A stretch of DNA of 39,597 nt from Deltaproteobacteria bacterium (GTDB taxonomy: Bacteria; Desulfobacterota; GWC2-55-46; DRME01): NCBI GenBank assembly GCA_011375175.1, contig DRME01000121.1, positions 1 through 39,597 on the forward strand. The letters run 5' to 3'. Positions 14,471 through 39,597 of the stretch are shown piece after piece. How positions within the stretch are numbered: the first letter of the stretch is position 1; each line of letters begins with the position of its first letter. Made by a program: the position numbers and the translations under genes. Below the pieces are notes generated by a model that was not told the origin of the DNA, searched no databases, and worked only from the letters and a program-made list of their open reading frames with translations.

Positions 14471-14660
14471 CCGGGGGAAACCTTCTGTAGAAGGGCCATA
14501 GGCCCACGGTTCCCTCATACTCCCTCCAAAAACTTTTAATGCGAGTTGGTTTCCCCCTGTTTTGCCAGGCAAAACAGGGGGAAACCAACTCGTATTGAAA
14601 GTCCTTGAAGGGGGTCTGGGGGAAACTTTCTTCAGAAAGTTTCCCCCAGGGTAATTAATG
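14471..14660. repeat. R-family hairpin repeat, copy R3 (inverted orientation)
   Basis: Carries the same modules in reverse order to R1/R5/R6: a hairpin variant with a GGGCC-ATA-GGCCC side arm, the flank CTCCAAAAACTTTTAATGCGAG, the 26-bp central stem, the flank TATTGAAAGTCCTTGAAGGGGG, then a hairpin CTGGGGGAAACTTTC with its complement, and GGGTAATTAATG. It ends 17 bp from the ATG of the lipoprotein gene, so it must lie in that operon's leader or promoter region. Palindrome P2 abuts it directly. Confidence 0.85.
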
Positions 14661-21274: not shown

Positions 21275-21477
21275 TGATTAATTACACTGGGGGAAACTTT
21301 CTGTAGAAAGTTTCCCCCAGACCCCCTTCAAAGACTTTCAATGCGAGTTGGTTTCCCCCTGTTTTGCCAGGCAAAACAGGGGGAAACCAACTCGCGTTAA
21401 AAGTTTTTGGAGGGAGTCTGAGGGAACCGTGGGTCTGTGACCCTTTTACAAAAAGGTTCCCTCAGGGTAAATAATCA
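21275..21477. repeat. R-family hairpin repeat, copy R5 (complete)
   Basis: The clearest complete copy. It is bounded by TGATTAATTAC on the left and its near complement GTAAATAATCA on the right. Inside: hairpin CTGGGGGAAACTTTC with complement (21287-21320), a linker, central 26-bp stem (about 21341-21394), a linker, and a third hairpin with a GGGTC-TGT-GACCC side arm. The left half is an imperfect complement of the whole right half. It sits 10 bp after the stop of the TPR/PgaB-like gene and about 21 bp before the start of the crp/fnr-type gene, filling the whole gap. Confidence 0.88.
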
Positions 21478-27550: not shown

Positions 27551-27730
27551 ACCCTGGGGGAAACTTTCTGTAGAAAGTTTCCCCCAGACCCCCTTCAAAG
27601 ACTTTCAATGCGAGTTGGTTTCCCCCTGTTTTGCCAGGCAAAACAGGGGGAAACCAACTCGCATTAAAAGTTTTTGGAGGGAGTCTGAGGGAACCTTTTT
27701 ACAAAAAGGTTCCCTCAGTATAATTAATCA
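27551..27730. repeat. R-family hairpin repeat, copy R6
   Basis: Hairpin CTGGGGGAAACTTTC with complement (27554-27587), flank CTTCAAAGACTTTCAAT, perfect 26-bp central stem with one-base loop (27610-27662), flank ATTAAAAGTTTTTGGAGGG, third hairpin CTGAGGGAACC with complement (27685-27718), and the terminal TAATTAATCA. Nearly identical to R1 and R5. It lies between convergent genes, 12 bp beyond the HD-GYP stop. Confidence 0.88.
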
Positions 27731-27971: not shown

Positions 27972-29510
27972 TCACCTATTCTTCCTTGCGCTCCAGAGCC
28001 AGGCCACCTCGACACCGAGGACCACCAGCGCGATGATGGCCGGCCAGAGGTAGAGTTCGGCCCCCACCGTGGGCTTGAGGAGGAGCCAGTACCAGGTGGT
28101 CATGACGTGTTTGGAGCCCTCTTCCTGGTTGGAGCCGTCCCATGCGGCGAAGGCGATGGGGATGTACTTGCCCGGCGTGAACTGAAGATCTTTCTCCTTG
28201 TCGTCGGTCTGTAGCGGCCGTTTCATCACGACCCGCCACGTGCCCTTGTCGTAGGCGCTCTTGAAGGTGAGGCCCGCCTCTGCGGGGTCGCGTTCCTCGA
28301 GGTTGTCTATGCCCGTTCCGTTGAGGAGCTTCAGCGTCGGAGACTCTCCCTCGCCGGCGGCGCTCTGCCAGAACCAGATGTTGACCGGGTTGGAAGGGTC
28401 TCCCATGCCGAAGTAGGGCTTCTCGCTGCTCTTTACGGTGACGGGGAACTGCACGGCCACGCCGTCGACGAAGACGTCGCCGTCGGCTATCTCAATGGCC
28501 TTGGCGTCGCCGGGCAGGCTCCTGGTCCTGTCGTCCCACTCGATGAGCAGCGCAATCTCCTTCTCGTTGAAGAGCGCCTTGGCCGAGATGGAGTTGAGCG
28601 ACGGCGTGAAGTGTCTCTCCTCGGCGATTATCTGGGGGACCATGTAGAAGCTCACGTACTGGGCCTGGTCCCATGCCGGGTCGTTGGGGTCATCGGGCAG
28701 GGGCCCCTCTACGAGCGTGCCCTGGATGACCGTGTTGTCGCCGGGCTTCTTGTAGGGGGCGTCGAGCGAGGCCACATAGTTGGCCACGTGCCAGCGGTCC
28801 TCCTCGGAGAGCTTCTTGGTGCTCGCCGGGTCGGCGAAGCTTGGCATCTGGGTGCCGGGGATGCCTACGGTCACGCGGTAGAATATGTCCTTGGGGTCGT
28901 TGCTGACCCTGAAGGACCAGCCCTTGGTGAGGTTTCGGGGCCAGGTGCGGAAACCGAGGTCGTCCTTGAGTTTCTTGGTGGCGTCGCCGCGGCCGGCCTC
29001 GCCGTGGCACTCGGCGCAGAGGTCCTTGAATATCTTCTCTCCCTTTGCTATGGACTCCGGCGAGCTCGGTATCTGGCCGCTCACGTCGACCGGCGGCTTC
29101 TCCGGGTCCTCGAACTCGGCGAAGGTCTTGATATAGGCGATGACGTCCCATATCTCCTGGTCGGTGAGCATGTCGCCCCAGCCGGGCATGGAGGAGTCGT
29201 TCATGCCCGTCCAGCCGACGATATGGTTCTTTGCCATCTCGCCCTTGACCATGTTGTAGAAGTCCTGGTCGCTGGGGACCATCTCGTCGAAGGGCGTGGT
29301 CTTGAACTTGTAGAGGCCGAAGGTGAAGTCCCGCGGCGGGGGGTTGAGCGTCTCGGCCGCCGGACCGTCGCCCATGCCTTCCTCGCCGTGGCACCACCAG
29401 CAACGCTTGTCGTATATCTCCTTGCCCCTGTTTACGTCGCCCTTGGCCGCCAGAGCCAGCCCGGGAAGCACCGTCAGTATAAAGGCGAGTATGATGACTC
29501 TATTCTTCAT
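27972..29510 (-). CDS. Dihaem cytochrome c with C-terminal EB_dh-type haem-b domain
   Basis: 512 residues. Signal peptide about 1-22. Two class I-like cytochrome c domains: CWWCH at 37-41 with distal candidate Met in SSMPGW (about 108), and CAECH at 165-169 with QMPSF (Met222). Residues about 265-475 resemble the ethylbenzene-dehydrogenase/DMSO-reductase type II gamma-subunit fold that binds haem b (LLIEWDDRTR, AVQFPVTV, WFWQS, WRVVMKRPL). A C-terminal helix (about 486-506) anchors it, with the domains outside. It is the last gene of the CydA-like operon, 50 bp after its neighbour. No molybdoenzyme subunit lies nearby, so the domain may serve as an electron wire to the oxidase; inference. Confidence 0.85.
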   Translation of the reverse strand: MKNRVIILAFILTVLPGLALAAKGDVNRGKEIYDKRCWWCHGEEGMGDGPAAETLNPPPRDFTFGLYKFKTTPFDEMVPSDQDFYNMVKGEMAKNHIVGWTGMNDSSMPGWGDMLTDQEIWDVIAYIKTFAEFEDPEKPPVDVSGQIPSSPESIAKGEKIFKDLCAECHGEAGRGDATKKLKDDLGFRTWPRNLTKGWSFRVSNDPKDIFYRVTVGIPGTQMPSFADPASTKKLSEEDRWHVANYVASLDAPYKKPGDNTVIQGTLVEGPLPDDPNDPAWDQAQYVSFYMVPQIIAEERHFTPSLNSISAKALFNEKEIALLIEWDDRTRSLPGDAKAIEIADGDVFVDGVAVQFPVTVKSSEKPYFGMGDPSNPVNIWFWQSAAGEGESPTLKLLNGTGIDNLEERDPAEAGLTFKSAYDKGTWRVVMKRPLQTDDKEKDLQFTPGKYIPIAFAAWDGSNQEEGSKHVMTTWYWLLLKPTVGAELYLWPAIIALVVLGVEVAWLWSARKNR

Positions 29511-29560
29511 AGGCCCGTAACCATCCTTAAGAATTTTTTAAAGTTCCTTGCTGGAGGCCG

Positions 29561-30319
29561 TCACTCCCAGGCCCTCGGCACGTTGCCGGTGTAGTCGTAT
29601 ATGAAAAGAATGGCCTTCCATATCTCTTCCTCGCTGAGGAAGTCCTGCCATATGGGCATGGAAGACATCCAGGGGGTCGACTCCTTGGGCAGCCCGGGAC
29701 CTCCGGTGGCTATCCTCCAGAAGACGAAGGACTCCTGGAGCTGGGCTATGGTGTCCTTGCCCTGGAAGGGGAGCGGCAGGGGATTGAAGCCCTGTGCGTA
29801 GTGGCCCTTGCCGCCGAGCTTGTCGCCGTGGCAGAAGTAGCAGTTCTTGAAGTAGATCTCGCCGCCCTCGCGCACGAGCTCCTTGAAGCGCTCGGGGTCT
29901 TCCTTCTCGACCTTGCGCAGCGGGTTCTCGAGCTTGGCGAGGTTGTAGGACTTGCCGTAGGCCTTCATCGACGACGGCGGCGCCGGATGGGTGGAGCGCA
30001 GCTCCACCGGCGCCTGGTAGGTGGGCTTGACCTGGTTGTAGGTGATGTAGGCGGCCACGAGCGGCACTATGATGAAGACCACGTTGCGAATGAGCCACTT
30101 GTCGGGGTCCTCGACGAGCGCCTTTATGGGGCCGAAGAGCTCGCGGGTGCTCTCCTCGGTGGCCGTCATGGCCAGGAGGATGGTGATCACCGCGAAGAAC
30201 ATGTACATGAGTATGAGGCTCGACGGGATGGGTTTGCCCATCAGGTAGTAAGGCGCCTGGAAGATCCCGTATGCGATCAGGACGTATATTACGAACTGGA
30301 GCAGTTTCGGTATTTTCAT
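29561..30319 (-). CDS. Membrane-anchored monohaem cytochrome c
   Basis: 252 residues. Three N-terminal helices (about 7-26, 33-51, 78-96), then a periplasmic cytochrome c domain with CYFCHGDKLGGKG (haem Cys160, Cys163, His164) and a distal candidate Met in WMSSMPIW. The multi-helix anchor differs from simple cytochrome subunits and suggests a structural role in a membrane complex. It lies 13 bp after the dihaem gene and 50 bp before the EB_dh gene. No named family is recognised. Confidence 0.85.
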   Translation of the reverse strand: MKIPKLLQFVIYVLIAYGIFQAPYYLMGKPIPSSLILMYMFFAVITILLAMTATEESTRELFGPIKALVEDPDKWLIRNVVFIIVPLVAAYITYNQVKPTYQAPVELRSTHPAPPSSMKAYGKSYNLAKLENPLRKVEKEDPERFKELVREGGEIYFKNCYFCHGDKLGGKGHYAQGFNPLPLPFQGKDTIAQLQESFVFWRIATGGPGLPKESTPWMSSMPIWQDFLSEEEIWKAILFIYDYTGNVPRAWE

Positions 30320-30332
30320 ATGGGACCTCTCT

Positions 30333-31148
30333 CTACTTTGATTGCGCCAGGAGCTGCACGACGAGTTCGAGCTCTCCTGCCGTCATCTGATCCTTGTAGG
30401 TGTCGGGCATCATGCCCGCAGGGTAGCCTTCGGCCACATCGGCGTTGGGGTCGATGATGGCCCGCCTGATGTAGGACTCGTCCCTCTCGGCGCCTATGGA
30501 GCTGAGGTCGGGTCCTATCTCCCCGCCCTTGCCCCCTATCTTGTGGCAGGCGTTGCAGCCGTACTTGGCCACGGCCTCCTCGCCGGTGGCGGCCGGCGCC
30601 GCAGCGGCCTCTTCCTCGCCGCCGCCTTCTTCGGGTGTCCCCTCCGGTATCTTGACGGTCACCTCCTGGCCCGCCATGTCCTGGAGGTAGGCTATGACGG
30701 CCCGCAGCTCGGCCTCGTTGAGCCCGATGGCCCCGGTGGAGACGTCGGGCATGGGGCTCTCCGTGTCGTTGGTGCCGGTGACGCCGAAGCCGGCCACCAC
30801 GTAGGCCGAGGGGTTGACCATGGATTCGTAGATGTACTCTTCGGCGTTGGTGGCCTCGCCCTTGTAGCGCTCGTCGGCGAGCCTCTCGGCCGCCACCACC
30901 GCCACCTGATCCAGGAGCGGGGCCCTCCCGCCCACGGGGTTGTGGCAGAGCTCGCAGGTGCCCTTGCCGTGGTATACCTTCTCGCCCAGGGCTATGAACT
31001 GGTCCATGGTCATGGCCCCGAGGTCGAGGACCTCCTCCTTGGGCGGCGGCGCGGGGTTTATGGGCGGAATGTACTTGTCGGCGAATATCGTGTAAAACCA
31101 GATTACGACGACACTGAAGATTATTACCTGAAGGAAGTTCTTCATCAA
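30333..31148 (-). CDS. Membrane-anchored dihaem cytochrome c
   Basis: 271 residues. One N-terminal helix (about 5-22), then two haem domains: CELCH at 65-69 with PMPDVS, and CNACH at 198-202 with a distal candidate Met in AGMMPDTY. They are joined by an acidic Ala/Glu linker (about 170-190). It resembles the dihaem electron-input subunits of membrane oxidases (CcoP-like layout). It starts six bases after the CydA-like gene stop, so it is most likely the direct electron donor to that protein; inference from position. Confidence 0.87.
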   Translation of the reverse strand: MMKNFLQVIIFSVVVIWFYTIFADKYIPPINPAPPPKEEVLDLGAMTMDQFIALGEKVYHGKGTCELCHNPVGGRAPLLDQVAVVAAERLADERYKGEATNAEEYIYESMVNPSAYVVAGFGVTGTNDTESPMPDVSTGAIGLNEAELRAVIAYLQDMAGQEVTVKIPEGTPEEGGGEEEAAAAPAATGEEAVAKYGCNACHKIGGKGGEIGPDLSSIGAERDESYIRRAIIDPNADVAEGYPAGMMPDTYKDQMTAGELELVVQLLAQSK

Positions 31149-31154
31149 CGCCCC

Positions 31155-33017
31155 CTACTGCTCGGCCTGCTTAGTGGCGCTAAGCTGGCTCAGCCAGAAT
31201 ATGAATATGACTATGGCCATGAATATTATGGTGCTCACCGAGACGACCTTGGCCGCGTAGCCGATGGTGGGAGTGAAGGCGTCGGGCGAGTTGTCCCTCA
31301 TGACCGTGTAGACGTGCCAGTGCTGCCTTATGCCCGAGCGGACAAAGCCCATAAGCCCCATGAGCCAGGTGAAGGAGACGGCCAGCAGAAAGAGCGCGTA
31401 CTGGCTGCGGGCCGGCATCTTGCCCCAGCGCAGCGGCCCCACTTCCTTGGCGCCCTTGTACATGAGGACGTCGATGACCATGACCGATATGATCACCACC
31501 AGGGTCGAGAGGACCTGCGGCACGCTGGAGGCGACCTTGTAGACCGTGTTCGTGAAGTAGCCGTAGTAGACGCCGAGCATCATGATGTTGATGATGGCGG
31601 CCGTGAAGATGCCTATCTGCAGGCCGTTTCCAAAGGGGGCCCAGCCCACGGTGGGCACCTTGTTGGTCCTGCGGTAGAGGAGGAAGCTCAGGAAGGTGAA
31701 GAGTATCATGACGTTGACGGCCGTGTTCTTGGCGGGCATGATGCCGAGGGGGCCGAGGAAGGGATGGTACTGGCCTCCCAGGGCCTTGAGCTCCCAGGGC
31801 TTGAGAATGAGCGTGTGGGGGGTGAACCAGACGAGGAAGCAGACGACGATGGTGAAGGCGATGTACTTTATGAACTTCGTGTAGCGGTAGGCGCCCTCGC
31901 TCCTCTCCATGCCGCACCAGAGGTAGTAGTTGGCCGACAGGAAGAGCGCGCCGATGAGCACGGCCTGGATGATGAAGAGCCAGGCGAAGACACCTCCCAT
32001 GAGCGTTATGCCCATCTGCTGGCTGTATGCGTAAATCTCGGCCGTGAGCCAGTAGCCGGCGAAGGGCAGCGGCAGGAGCGCCGCGATGGCTATGAAGTTC
32101 GCCGTGTAGCCCATCCAGTCGTAGTGGGCCCTCTGCTCCTCGGTGCGGGCCGCGAGGAACTTGTAGGCCGCGTAAGCGCCCACTATGGAGCCGCCGTAGG
32201 CCACGTTGGCCACCACGCGATGGAGGTTTATGGGGTTCCAGAGGTGGTTGTGTATGGCGTGCCAGACGTTGCCCTCGAAGGTCCCGTCGGCGGCCACGCC
32301 GTGGGGGCTCATCATGAAGGTGACCCAGGCGTTGGCGAAGAACATGAGCATGGTGCCCACGGCGTTGAGCAGAAGTCCGATGGTCAGGTGGACCCACTTG
32401 CGGAAGCCGTACTTCAAGGCGTGCCAGCCGTAATAGTATATGTAGAGACAGGCGCTCTCGCCGAAGAAGAGGAAGGCGTAGGCCAGCATGGTGGAGCCGA
32501 AGATATCGGTCATGTACCCCATGAACTGGGGATAGAAGACGAAGAGGGTGAATGCGAGAAGCCCTCCGAGGATGGCCGTCACCGAGTAGGCCGTAAGGCT
32601 CACCTTGATGAACTCGTAGGCCATCTTGTCGTACCGCTCGTCCTTGGTGGCCATGCCTATGGCCTCAATGATGAAGACGAAGATGGGGACGGCGAGCACG
32701 AAGGCGGCGAACCACAGATGAAGCTGCGCCACCACCCAGGCGAGCACCCTGCCGTTTATGCCCTTTATCTGGGGATAGTCCTCGGGCTTGAGTTTGGGCG
32801 CGGGGCCGTAGACCCGTTCCACCGGCTCGGCCGGATGAGCGGCCTCCACACCGGCGTCGCCGCCGCCGCCACCGCCGGCCCAGGCGTATCCGGAAGCCGA
32901 GTCCGGCGTCGGCGCGGACGGCATCATCGCCGGCGCGACAAGGCAGGCGAGCAGGACGAAGAGGGCCGTGAGGGCGAGCTTCTTCTTCGCGAGTTTTGCT
33001 GTGAAGGGCAGATTCAT
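31155..33017 (-). CDS. Divergent CydA-superfamily oxidase subunit (no CydB partner)
   Basis: 620 residues, longer than E. coli CydA (522), with an extra N-terminal helix and a Gly-rich linker (about 48-53). By-eye alignment to CydA: His100 (AQLHLWFA) fits the b595 ligand His19; Glu187 (FFGESAC) fits Glu107; His266 (NLHRVVANVAYGGS) fits the b558 ligand His186; RQHW (564-567) fits the RQPW motif. The positions of Glu99 and Glu445 appear as Ala and Ser, and no clear Met393 equivalent was found. Extra histidines cluster at WHAIHNH (252-258). This fits the cytochrome-c-associated CydA clades rather than quinol oxidases. The ATG at 33017 has AAGGAG seven bases upstream. Reaction unproven. Confidence 0.82.
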   Translation of the reverse strand: MNLPFTAKLAKKKLALTALFVLLACLVAPAMMPSAPTPDSASGYAWAGGGGGGDAGVEAAHPAEPVERVYGPAPKLKPEDYPQIKGINGRVLAWVVAQLHLWFAAFVLAVPIFVFIIEAIGMATKDERYDKMAYEFIKVSLTAYSVTAILGGLLAFTLFVFYPQFMGYMTDIFGSTMLAYAFLFFGESACLYIYYYGWHALKYGFRKWVHLTIGLLLNAVGTMLMFFANAWVTFMMSPHGVAADGTFEGNVWHAIHNHLWNPINLHRVVANVAYGGSIVGAYAAYKFLAARTEEQRAHYDWMGYTANFIAIAALLPLPFAGYWLTAEIYAYSQQMGITLMGGVFAWLFIIQAVLIGALFLSANYYLWCGMERSEGAYRYTKFIKYIAFTIVVCFLVWFTPHTLILKPWELKALGGQYHPFLGPLGIMPAKNTAVNVMILFTFLSFLLYRRTNKVPTVGWAPFGNGLQIGIFTAAIINIMMLGVYYGYFTNTVYKVASSVPQVLSTLVVIISVMVIDVLMYKGAKEVGPLRWGKMPARSQYALFLLAVSFTWLMGLMGFVRSGIRQHWHVYTVMRDNSPDAFTPTIGYAAKVVSVSTIIFMAIVIFIFWLSQLSATKQAEQ

Positions 33018-33114
33018 ACAAACACTCCTTGTATTGATAAATGACATCTGCTGCCGTCTCCGGACGCGTCCGGCCTGCGGGCCGCCCGAGCGCAGGCGCC
33101 GCCCGAGCACGCCT

Positions 33115-33228
33115 TCACCCGTGATAGATGAAGGTGAGCCCCTGGGCGTTGAAGAGCGCCACGTTGAGAAGCAGGAAAGCCACCAGCGAAGCCCCGAGGC
33201 CGATGAGAAATCCGATAATGGTCTTCAT
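33115..33228 (-). CDS. 37-residue single-helix protein upstream of the CydA-like gene
   Basis: MKTIIGFLIGLGASLVAFLL opens one hydrophobic helix (about 3-26), followed by FNAQGLTFIYHG and a stop. AGGGAG lies six bases before the ATG. It is 97 bp upstream of the CydA-like start on the same strand. Size and position recall the micro-subunits CydX/CbdX of bd oxidases, though no sequence relation is claimed. Codon use and Shine-Dalgarno support a real gene. Confidence 0.7.
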   Translation of the reverse strand: MKTIIGFLIGLGASLVAFLLLNVALFNAQGLTFIYHG

Positions 33229-33254
33229 TCGTCTCTCCCTGGAATGTTCTTTGT

Positions 33255-33353
33255 TTAGTGGTGTCCGAGAAACCAGTAAAACAGGTAGATGACCGCGACG
33301 AGGACCGTCACGAACAGGATCGGACCGGCTTTACCCGAGCTGTTTTCAGCCAT
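33255..33353 (-). CDS. 32-residue single-helix protein, first gene of the oxidase operon
   Basis: MAENSSGKAG, then a helix (PILFVTVLVAVIYLFYWFLG) and HH at the end. GGGGGAGAG precedes the ATG. It lies 26 bp upstream of the 37-residue gene, so the two small proteins appear to open the operon. In the leader, a GC hairpin (CCGGGCC at 33375-33381, GGCCCGG at 33386-33392) precedes it. Possible oxidase micro-subunit; function unknown. Confidence 0.68.
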   Translation of the reverse strand: MAENSSGKAGPILFVTVLVAVIYLFYWFLGHH

Positions 33354-39347: not shown

Positions 39348-39597
39348 TGATTGGTTACCCTGGAGGAAACTTTCTGTAGAAGGGCCACAGGCCCGCGTTT
39401 CCCCCTGTCCCATCGTATGTTGTTCGGCTCTTCGGCTGTACCGGGGGTTCGGCCCGCGCCAGGCGGGATCCTTTTACGCCTTTGCGGCCCGAACCCCCCG
39501 GTACAGCCCCCACGAGGCAGCCGCCGCGGGCAGCCTGGGGGAAACTTTCTGTAGAAAGTTTCCCCCAGACCCCCTTCAAAGACTTTTAATTCCCTGC
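39348..39597. repeat. R-family repeat R8 with nested P palindrome (cut by window edge)
   Basis: Starts TGATTGGTTACCCTGG, then the first-hairpin variant with a GGGCC-ACA-GGCCC side arm, then palindrome P4, a linker (CCCCCACGAGGCAGCC), then a standard outer hairpin (CTGGGGGAAACTTTC and complement, about 39535-39568) and the linker CCTTCAAAGACTTTTAAT before the window ends. The order matches composite R2. The 39229-39347 gap upstream of DUF2905 holds nothing recognised. Confidence 0.8.
39434..39508. repeat. P-family palindrome, copy P4
   Basis: Arms GGCTGTACCGGGGGTTCGG and their complement ending GGTACAGCC pair over about 22-24 bp, around the core CGCGCCAGGCGGGATC then TTTACGCCTTTGCGG. Located inside R8 at the same relative place as P1 in R2. 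Confidence 0.8.

Follow-up and report, generated by a model that had tools for sequence, protein, structure and literature searches.

What kind of enzyme is formed when a CydA-like subunit is encoded together with c-type cytochromes and an EB_dh protein, and with no CydB? This question is raised by an operon on contig DRME01000121.1 of a Deltaproteobacteria bacterium (assembly GCA_011375175.1; contig C121 in our numbering), the whole 39,597 nucleotides of which constitute the window analysed here. The host is an uncultured groundwater-type bacterium with a genome of 2.49 Mb that is 98.6% complete. Six open reading frames follow one another on the minus strand from 33353 to 27972: two micro-proteins (micro2, then micro1), the CydA-like subunit, the cytochromes c cyc271 and cyc252, and EB512, in the order and at the coordinates that a first-pass annotation, made from the letters alone, had given. 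Our best explanation, held at roughly even confidence, is that the operon encodes a bd-like complex fed with electrons from the periplasm and probably serving as an O2 reductase. Its CydA core would exchange electrons with the periplasm via c-type haems, instead of with quinol, and the enzyme would represent a stand-alone, single-CydA version of the published OR-N kind of oxygen reductase, linked to cytochrome c.

The CydA-like protein (31155..33017, minus strand) is 620 amino acids (aa) long from the ATG at 33017, or 651 aa from a GTG at 33110, and carries an N-terminal signal-like helix. Pfam analysis detected PF01654 (E 1.3e-21), confined to the N-terminal half. In a search of the PDB with its AlphaFold2 model (pLDDT 84), all matches at E <= 0.001 were bd oxidase subunit I (CydA) chains; overall TM-scores against these chains were low (0.44 or less by query length), and the search returned no close structure. 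A tree of CydA-like and canonical CydA sequences, built with a short search, separated the canonical quinol oxidases (qOR) from the A, B and related types at support 100, placing the window protein outside the canonical group and within clade B, alongside a Nitrospinota orthologue (L115). Within the CydA-like sequences, group support was 72 for the B-type and 87 for the A-type, a division that appears reasonable, though not strongly supported. The A-type is a second, longer CydA (~730 aa) with its own three-cytochrome set directly upstream, present in 21 of 80 loci.

Residue correspondences were mapped by profile alignment with canonical CydA, E. coli included. Four canonical positions are kept in the window protein (H19 as H100, E37 as E118, E107 as E187, and H186 as H266), while K252 and E257 of the Q-loop of quinol bd oxidases fall at positions that are not conserved. 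The protein therefore has no conserved quinol site, a criterion shared with the OR-N family; together with the tree, this agrees with the earlier judgement that the enzyme is not a quinol bd oxidase. M393 corresponds to M427 by motif match alone, outside the profile alignment; M427 is invariant in 44 sequences and probably partners H266 as a ligand of the low-spin haem. At the position of E445, both A- and B-types carry serine, and a third CydA-like type (D; L050, L051, L064) retains glutamate.

The absence of CydB extends well beyond the operon. The operon's own CydA is the only PF01654 gene in the host genome, and PF02322 has no match in the operon or anywhere else in that genome, at its 98.6% completeness. 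CydB is likewise missing from 58 of 59 relatives, and none of the B-type carriers among these 59 has PF02322; the single exception (G038) lacks the B-type, and its only CydA match is weak and canonical-like. The search thus yielded no CydB-like gene elsewhere that might co-evolve with this subunit, and the description of the operon as CydB-less stands.

The three genes that follow cydA encode five CXXCH motifs, two in cyc271, one in cyc252 and two in EB512, at intergenic gaps of 6 bp (cydA/cyc271), 13 bp (cyc271/cyc252) and 50 bp (cyc252/EB512). Membrane-anchored dihaem cyc271 (30333..31148, minus strand; CELCH at residue 65, CNACH at 198) and monohaem cyc252 (29561..30319, minus strand; CYFCH at 160) both match PF00034/PF13442. 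In cyc271 the first haem site and M133 are near-invariant across 76 homologues and the second haem site is lost in some; in cyc252, C160, C163, H164 and M221 are invariant in 53 homologues. The AlphaFold2 model of cyc252 contains membrane helices at 5-27, 33-51 and 72-97, matching the three-helix architecture first proposed for it. EB512 (27972..29510, minus strand) combines two cytochrome c domains (CWWCH at 37, CAECH at 165) with an EB_dh domain (Pfam, E 4.9e-25) and a C-terminal membrane helix, so that the five haem sites and the EB_dh domain originally reported were all recovered. It also matches NCBIfam TIGR03477, the haem-b subunit of type II dimethyl sulfoxide (DMSO) reductases (E 5.3e-38), and its PDB matches are the gamma subunit of ethylbenzene dehydrogenase and subunit C of nitrite oxidoreductase (NXR). 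The candidate haem-b ligands M369 and K467, which we take as such by analogy with EbdC, are present in the window protein and are kept in 35/42 and 23/42 sequences, respectively. Because these residues vary among relatives, the b haem of EB512 may not be universal.

A survey of 80 named loci from several phyla (59-83% identical) revealed that the order CydA-like, cyc271, cyc252, EB512 holds in every locus whose contig extends far enough, apart from an occasional insertion (L067). This recurrence of the same ordered genes in about 80 loci is beyond chance. Of 42 good genomes in the host order and class, 37 have a CydA-like match; most of these are of the B-type, and in a few the match is solely to a paralogue. 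Carriers include groundwater metagenome-assembled genomes labelled 'Deltaproteobacteria', Rhodospirillaceae-type and other Alphaproteobacteria, Gallionellales, Mariprofundus, Nitrospinae, Nitrospirae, and sulfur-oxidising Gammaproteobacteria (Thiomargarita, Sedimenticola, Thiodiazotropha, Venteria). In the sulfur-oxidising Gammaproteobacteria, cyc252 and EB512 are fused into one gene of about 800 aa, indicating that these two parts work together and hinting at a single complex. With the conserved operon partners, this fusion bears out the proposal that c-type cytochromes are built into the system.

On the preferred reading, electrons would pass from a periplasmic donor to EB512, by way of its pair of c haems and probably a b haem, then through cyc252/cyc271 to a low-spin haem whose ligands would be H266 and probably M427. 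The last step would lead to a high-spin haem bound at H100, the site of O2 reduction with protons taken from the cytoplasm. We infer this route, and predict O2 reduction as its probable outcome, from sequence. The CydA core may act as a homodimer or, in genomes that also encode an A-type paralogue, pair with it as a heterodimer. A CydAA' heterodimer as a requirement was rejected, since the host has one CydA; tandem A+B operons occur elsewhere, in the 21 of 80 loci already mentioned. The two micro-proteins, each with one helix, may be small stabilising subunits. They are micro2 (33255..33353, minus strand; 32 aa), with homologues in the same place in L049, L052, L058, L060, L061 and L063, and micro1 (33115..33228, minus strand; 37 aa), with homologues in L046, L049, L052, L056 and L063; overall, such homologues stand at the matching position in many relatives. 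The likeness of micro1 to CydX is one of size alone and does not imply homology.

Several observations weigh against an oxygen reductase. We take the residues at the high-spin haems of canonical CydA to be numbered H19, E99 and E445; in the window protein Tyr180 stands in place of E99, and Ser561 in place of E445. At least one high-spin haem would therefore be bound otherwise than in quinol bd oxidases, where a histidine plus glutamates sit at the high-spin haems (PMC8951039), or be missing. The host has seven PF00115 matches, two of them above 400 bits, and does not need a further oxidase. Some relatives adjoin genes for N2O reductase and iodate-reductase-like enzymes, which need an electron source, not a sink. 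A related gene cluster is kept in anammox bacteria, which are anaerobes (PMC3578206). The literature surveyed reports neither a purified OR-N-type protein nor an activity for any of them. The first-pass suggestion of a cytochrome-c-fed enzyme thus stands in part: the c-type partners and the lack of a quinol site favour it, whereas its oxidase half, which is deduced from genes, is weakened by the replaced glutamates and by relatives that adjoin reductases as well as oxidising-type enzymes.

These neighbours are of three kinds. In L096, L104 and L108 the gene for the clade III lactonase-type N2O reductase (L-NosZ) follows the CydA-like gene at a distance of ~3.7 kb, and in L097 it lies upstream of the operon on the same contig; in G002 the cydA-cyc-cyc-EB series runs straight into genes for a universal stress protein, L-NosZ, cytochrome b6 and a cytochrome c. 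In six loci of sulfur-oxidising Gammaproteobacteria (L130, L132, L134, L141, L143, L145), the genes behind the operon encode a pair of di-haem peroxidase-like proteins, a Rieske protein and an AioA-like protein; this set presumably resembles the iodate-reductase operon idrABP1P2. Peroxidase-like, Rieske and AioA-like genes of this sort also lie upstream of an A-type operon in G048, and G054, G055 and G058 each carry an AioA-like gene and a CydA-like fragment on one contig. Directly upstream of another A-type operon in G048 are genes for the alpha, beta and gamma subunits of a type II DMSO reductase and for a 16-haem cytochrome, with 16 CXXCH motifs (L047:3-5773). The neighbour links are suggestive of shared electron carriers, without fixing the direction of flow. 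A gene for a universal stress protein with a PCP_red (protochlorophyllide-reductase C-terminal) domain was also observed in about half of the loci (e.g., L089:14163-15661).

From this neighbourhood arises the main rival to an O2-reducing role, which we regard as tentative: an electron-coupling module, possibly driven by the proton-motive force, that would link the membrane quinone pool with molybdenum or copper enzymes of the periplasm, and in this way either supply reductases or drive reverse electron transport. The adjacency of operon relatives to all three enzyme kinds, the E99/E445 changes and the L-NosZ encoded by the host itself are consistent with it, as is the reverse-electron role already proposed for the nitrifier cluster (PMC3578206, PMC6606698). 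The host L-NosZ scores 722 bits against a cut-off of 700 (G000:C55:38203-39651; L168) and adjoins a cytochrome b6-like gene, on a contig other than the operon's. However, the CydA-like protein lacks quinol-site residues, and the bc-type cytochrome b genes of the host, including the one beside L-NosZ, mean that another quinol dehydrogenase is at hand. L-NosZ and the operon, moreover, occur independently in the host order and class, where most genomes lacking L-NosZ keep the operon, which rules out an obligatory tie between the two. Within the window the operon also stands alone, with no adjoining redox partner gene. It is flanked by an HD-GYP-like gene in convergent orientation and by a gene resembling alanine dehydrogenase (both named by inspection), and scans for sigma-70 promoters and terminators at the operon ends found nothing convincing.

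Two exclusive roles for the operon were rejected. It is not the sole quinol:cytochrome c reductase of the cell, which has four cytochrome b (PF00033) genes, nor the sole terminal oxidase, given the PF00115 oxidase-type genes; neither terminal oxidation nor quinol oxidation therefore hangs on the operon alone. A tie to nitrite oxidation in the host was set aside as well, there being no strong NXR/NarG match in its genome (best type II DMSO reductase match E 8.8e-21); nor was an AioA-like enzyme found there at E 1e-80.

A broader proposal, which we consider doubtful, is that the genes form a portable redox module paired in different lineages with NXR-type, iodate-reductase-type and clade III N2O reductase enzymes, such that, at least in N2O reducers, electrons would reach the reductase, not O2. 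Quite unlikely, in our assessment, is that the complex draws electrons from periplasmic cytochromes to reduce nitric oxide (NO), or to scavenge NO/O2 and so shield N2O reductase. The L-NosZ of the host and of loci where it adjoins the operon, the altered active-site residues and the origin of several carriers in oxygen-minimum-zone samples, as judged from their record titles, would fit such a role; yet the CydA-like protein showed no signature specific to NO, and several further PF00115 matches of the host, three of which sit together on contig C67, could themselves be NO reductases. An ordinary quinol bd oxidase with an overlooked CydB, suggested by the PF01654 match and the CydA fold, is highly improbable in view of the tree, the missing Q-loop residues and the lack of PF02322 in the host and in B-type carriers among the 59 relatives, and is ruled out as far as a genome completeness of 98.6% allows.

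Comparison with known systems places the operon close to published, though uncharacterised, relatives. The founding survey of the cytochrome bd superfamily and its OR-N family is reportedly that of Murali et al. in 2021, as cited by PMC10839748 and PMC12342949. Nitrospira, Nitrospina gracilis and Kuenenia encode a bd-like oxidase of 14 helices without quinol-binding residues, in a cluster with a monohaem cytochrome c, a dihaem cytochrome c and an alternative NxrC bearing two haem motifs and a membrane helix, for which reverse electron transport or NXR anchoring has been proposed (PMC3578206, PMC6606698). By this published description, the cluster unites the same CydA-like, monohaem, dihaem and two-haem EB_dh/NxrC-like genes. 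It is, however, tied to NXR and to several bd-like paralogues, whereas the window operon stands alone, with one CydA, in a host that lacks a strong NXR/NarG match. In Nitrospinota and Nitrospirales, OR-N proteins are putative cytochrome-c-oxidising O2 reductases, uncharacterised and thought to pair as CydAA' (PMC10839748, PMC12342949); those of Nitrospinota, whose CydA proteins are mostly OR-N1/OR-N2, are proposed to draw electrons from cytochrome c (PMC10839748). The window system shares with this family the missing quinol site, the absence of CydB and the occurrence of orthologues in Nitrospinota, but the host genome has no second CydA with which an OR-N1/OR-N2 pair could form. TO_1, a terminal oxidase of Ca. 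Manganitrophus that is present in other Nitrospirota as well (PMC9040806), is similar by description only, as a bd-like protein partnered by a periplasmic cytochrome b. The nitrifier and Kuenenia clusters near NXR and TO_1 are thus precedents, at the level of sequence, for the EB_dh arrangement, which the first-pass annotation had put forward as a possible uncharacterised respiratory complex.

Resemblance to more distant systems is partial. With canonical CydAB(X) the operon shares the CydA fold, the equivalents of H19, H186 and E107, and small one-helix proteins; it differs in having no CydB, no Q-loop residues, replacements of E99 and E445, and five c-type haem sites. EB512 resembles EbdC/NxrC, the gamma subunits of type II DMSO reductases, in its EB_dh fold and candidate haem-b ligands, but is a fusion protein that also contains a pair of cytochrome c domains plus a membrane anchor, in an operon without a molybdenum subunit.

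The four-gene arrangement and the status of OR-N as a biochemically uncharacterised family are therefore already published. What is new is the stand-alone, single-CydA form in a genome without a strong NXR/NarG match, its wide spread, the cytochrome/EB_dh fusion in sulfur oxidisers, the changes in active-site residues, and the recurrent position of operon relatives beside clade III N2O reductase, iodate-reductase-like genes and type II DMSO reductases.

Apart from these genes, directly downstream of the operon (27555-27715) lies a palindromic repeat of the dispersed kind, ~160 bp long, in which several hairpins are nested. Further copies lie in the window near 11-135, 14475-14645, 21290-21460 and 39360-39560, and the repeat is found on other contigs of the same genome too (L168, L178-L181).

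In ecologically important nitrifiers, OR-N-type proteins are often regarded as the main oxidase or as an extra one. The stand-alone single-CydA operon, common in genomes without CydB and mostly without a second CydA, offers a simpler system for the role of this core. Its N2O-reductase and iodate-reductase-like neighbours are concrete, testable partners, and they challenge the assumed tie of the family to nitrite oxidation. Should the genes prove to be a portable redox module, the bd superfamily would gain a second job besides oxygen reduction.

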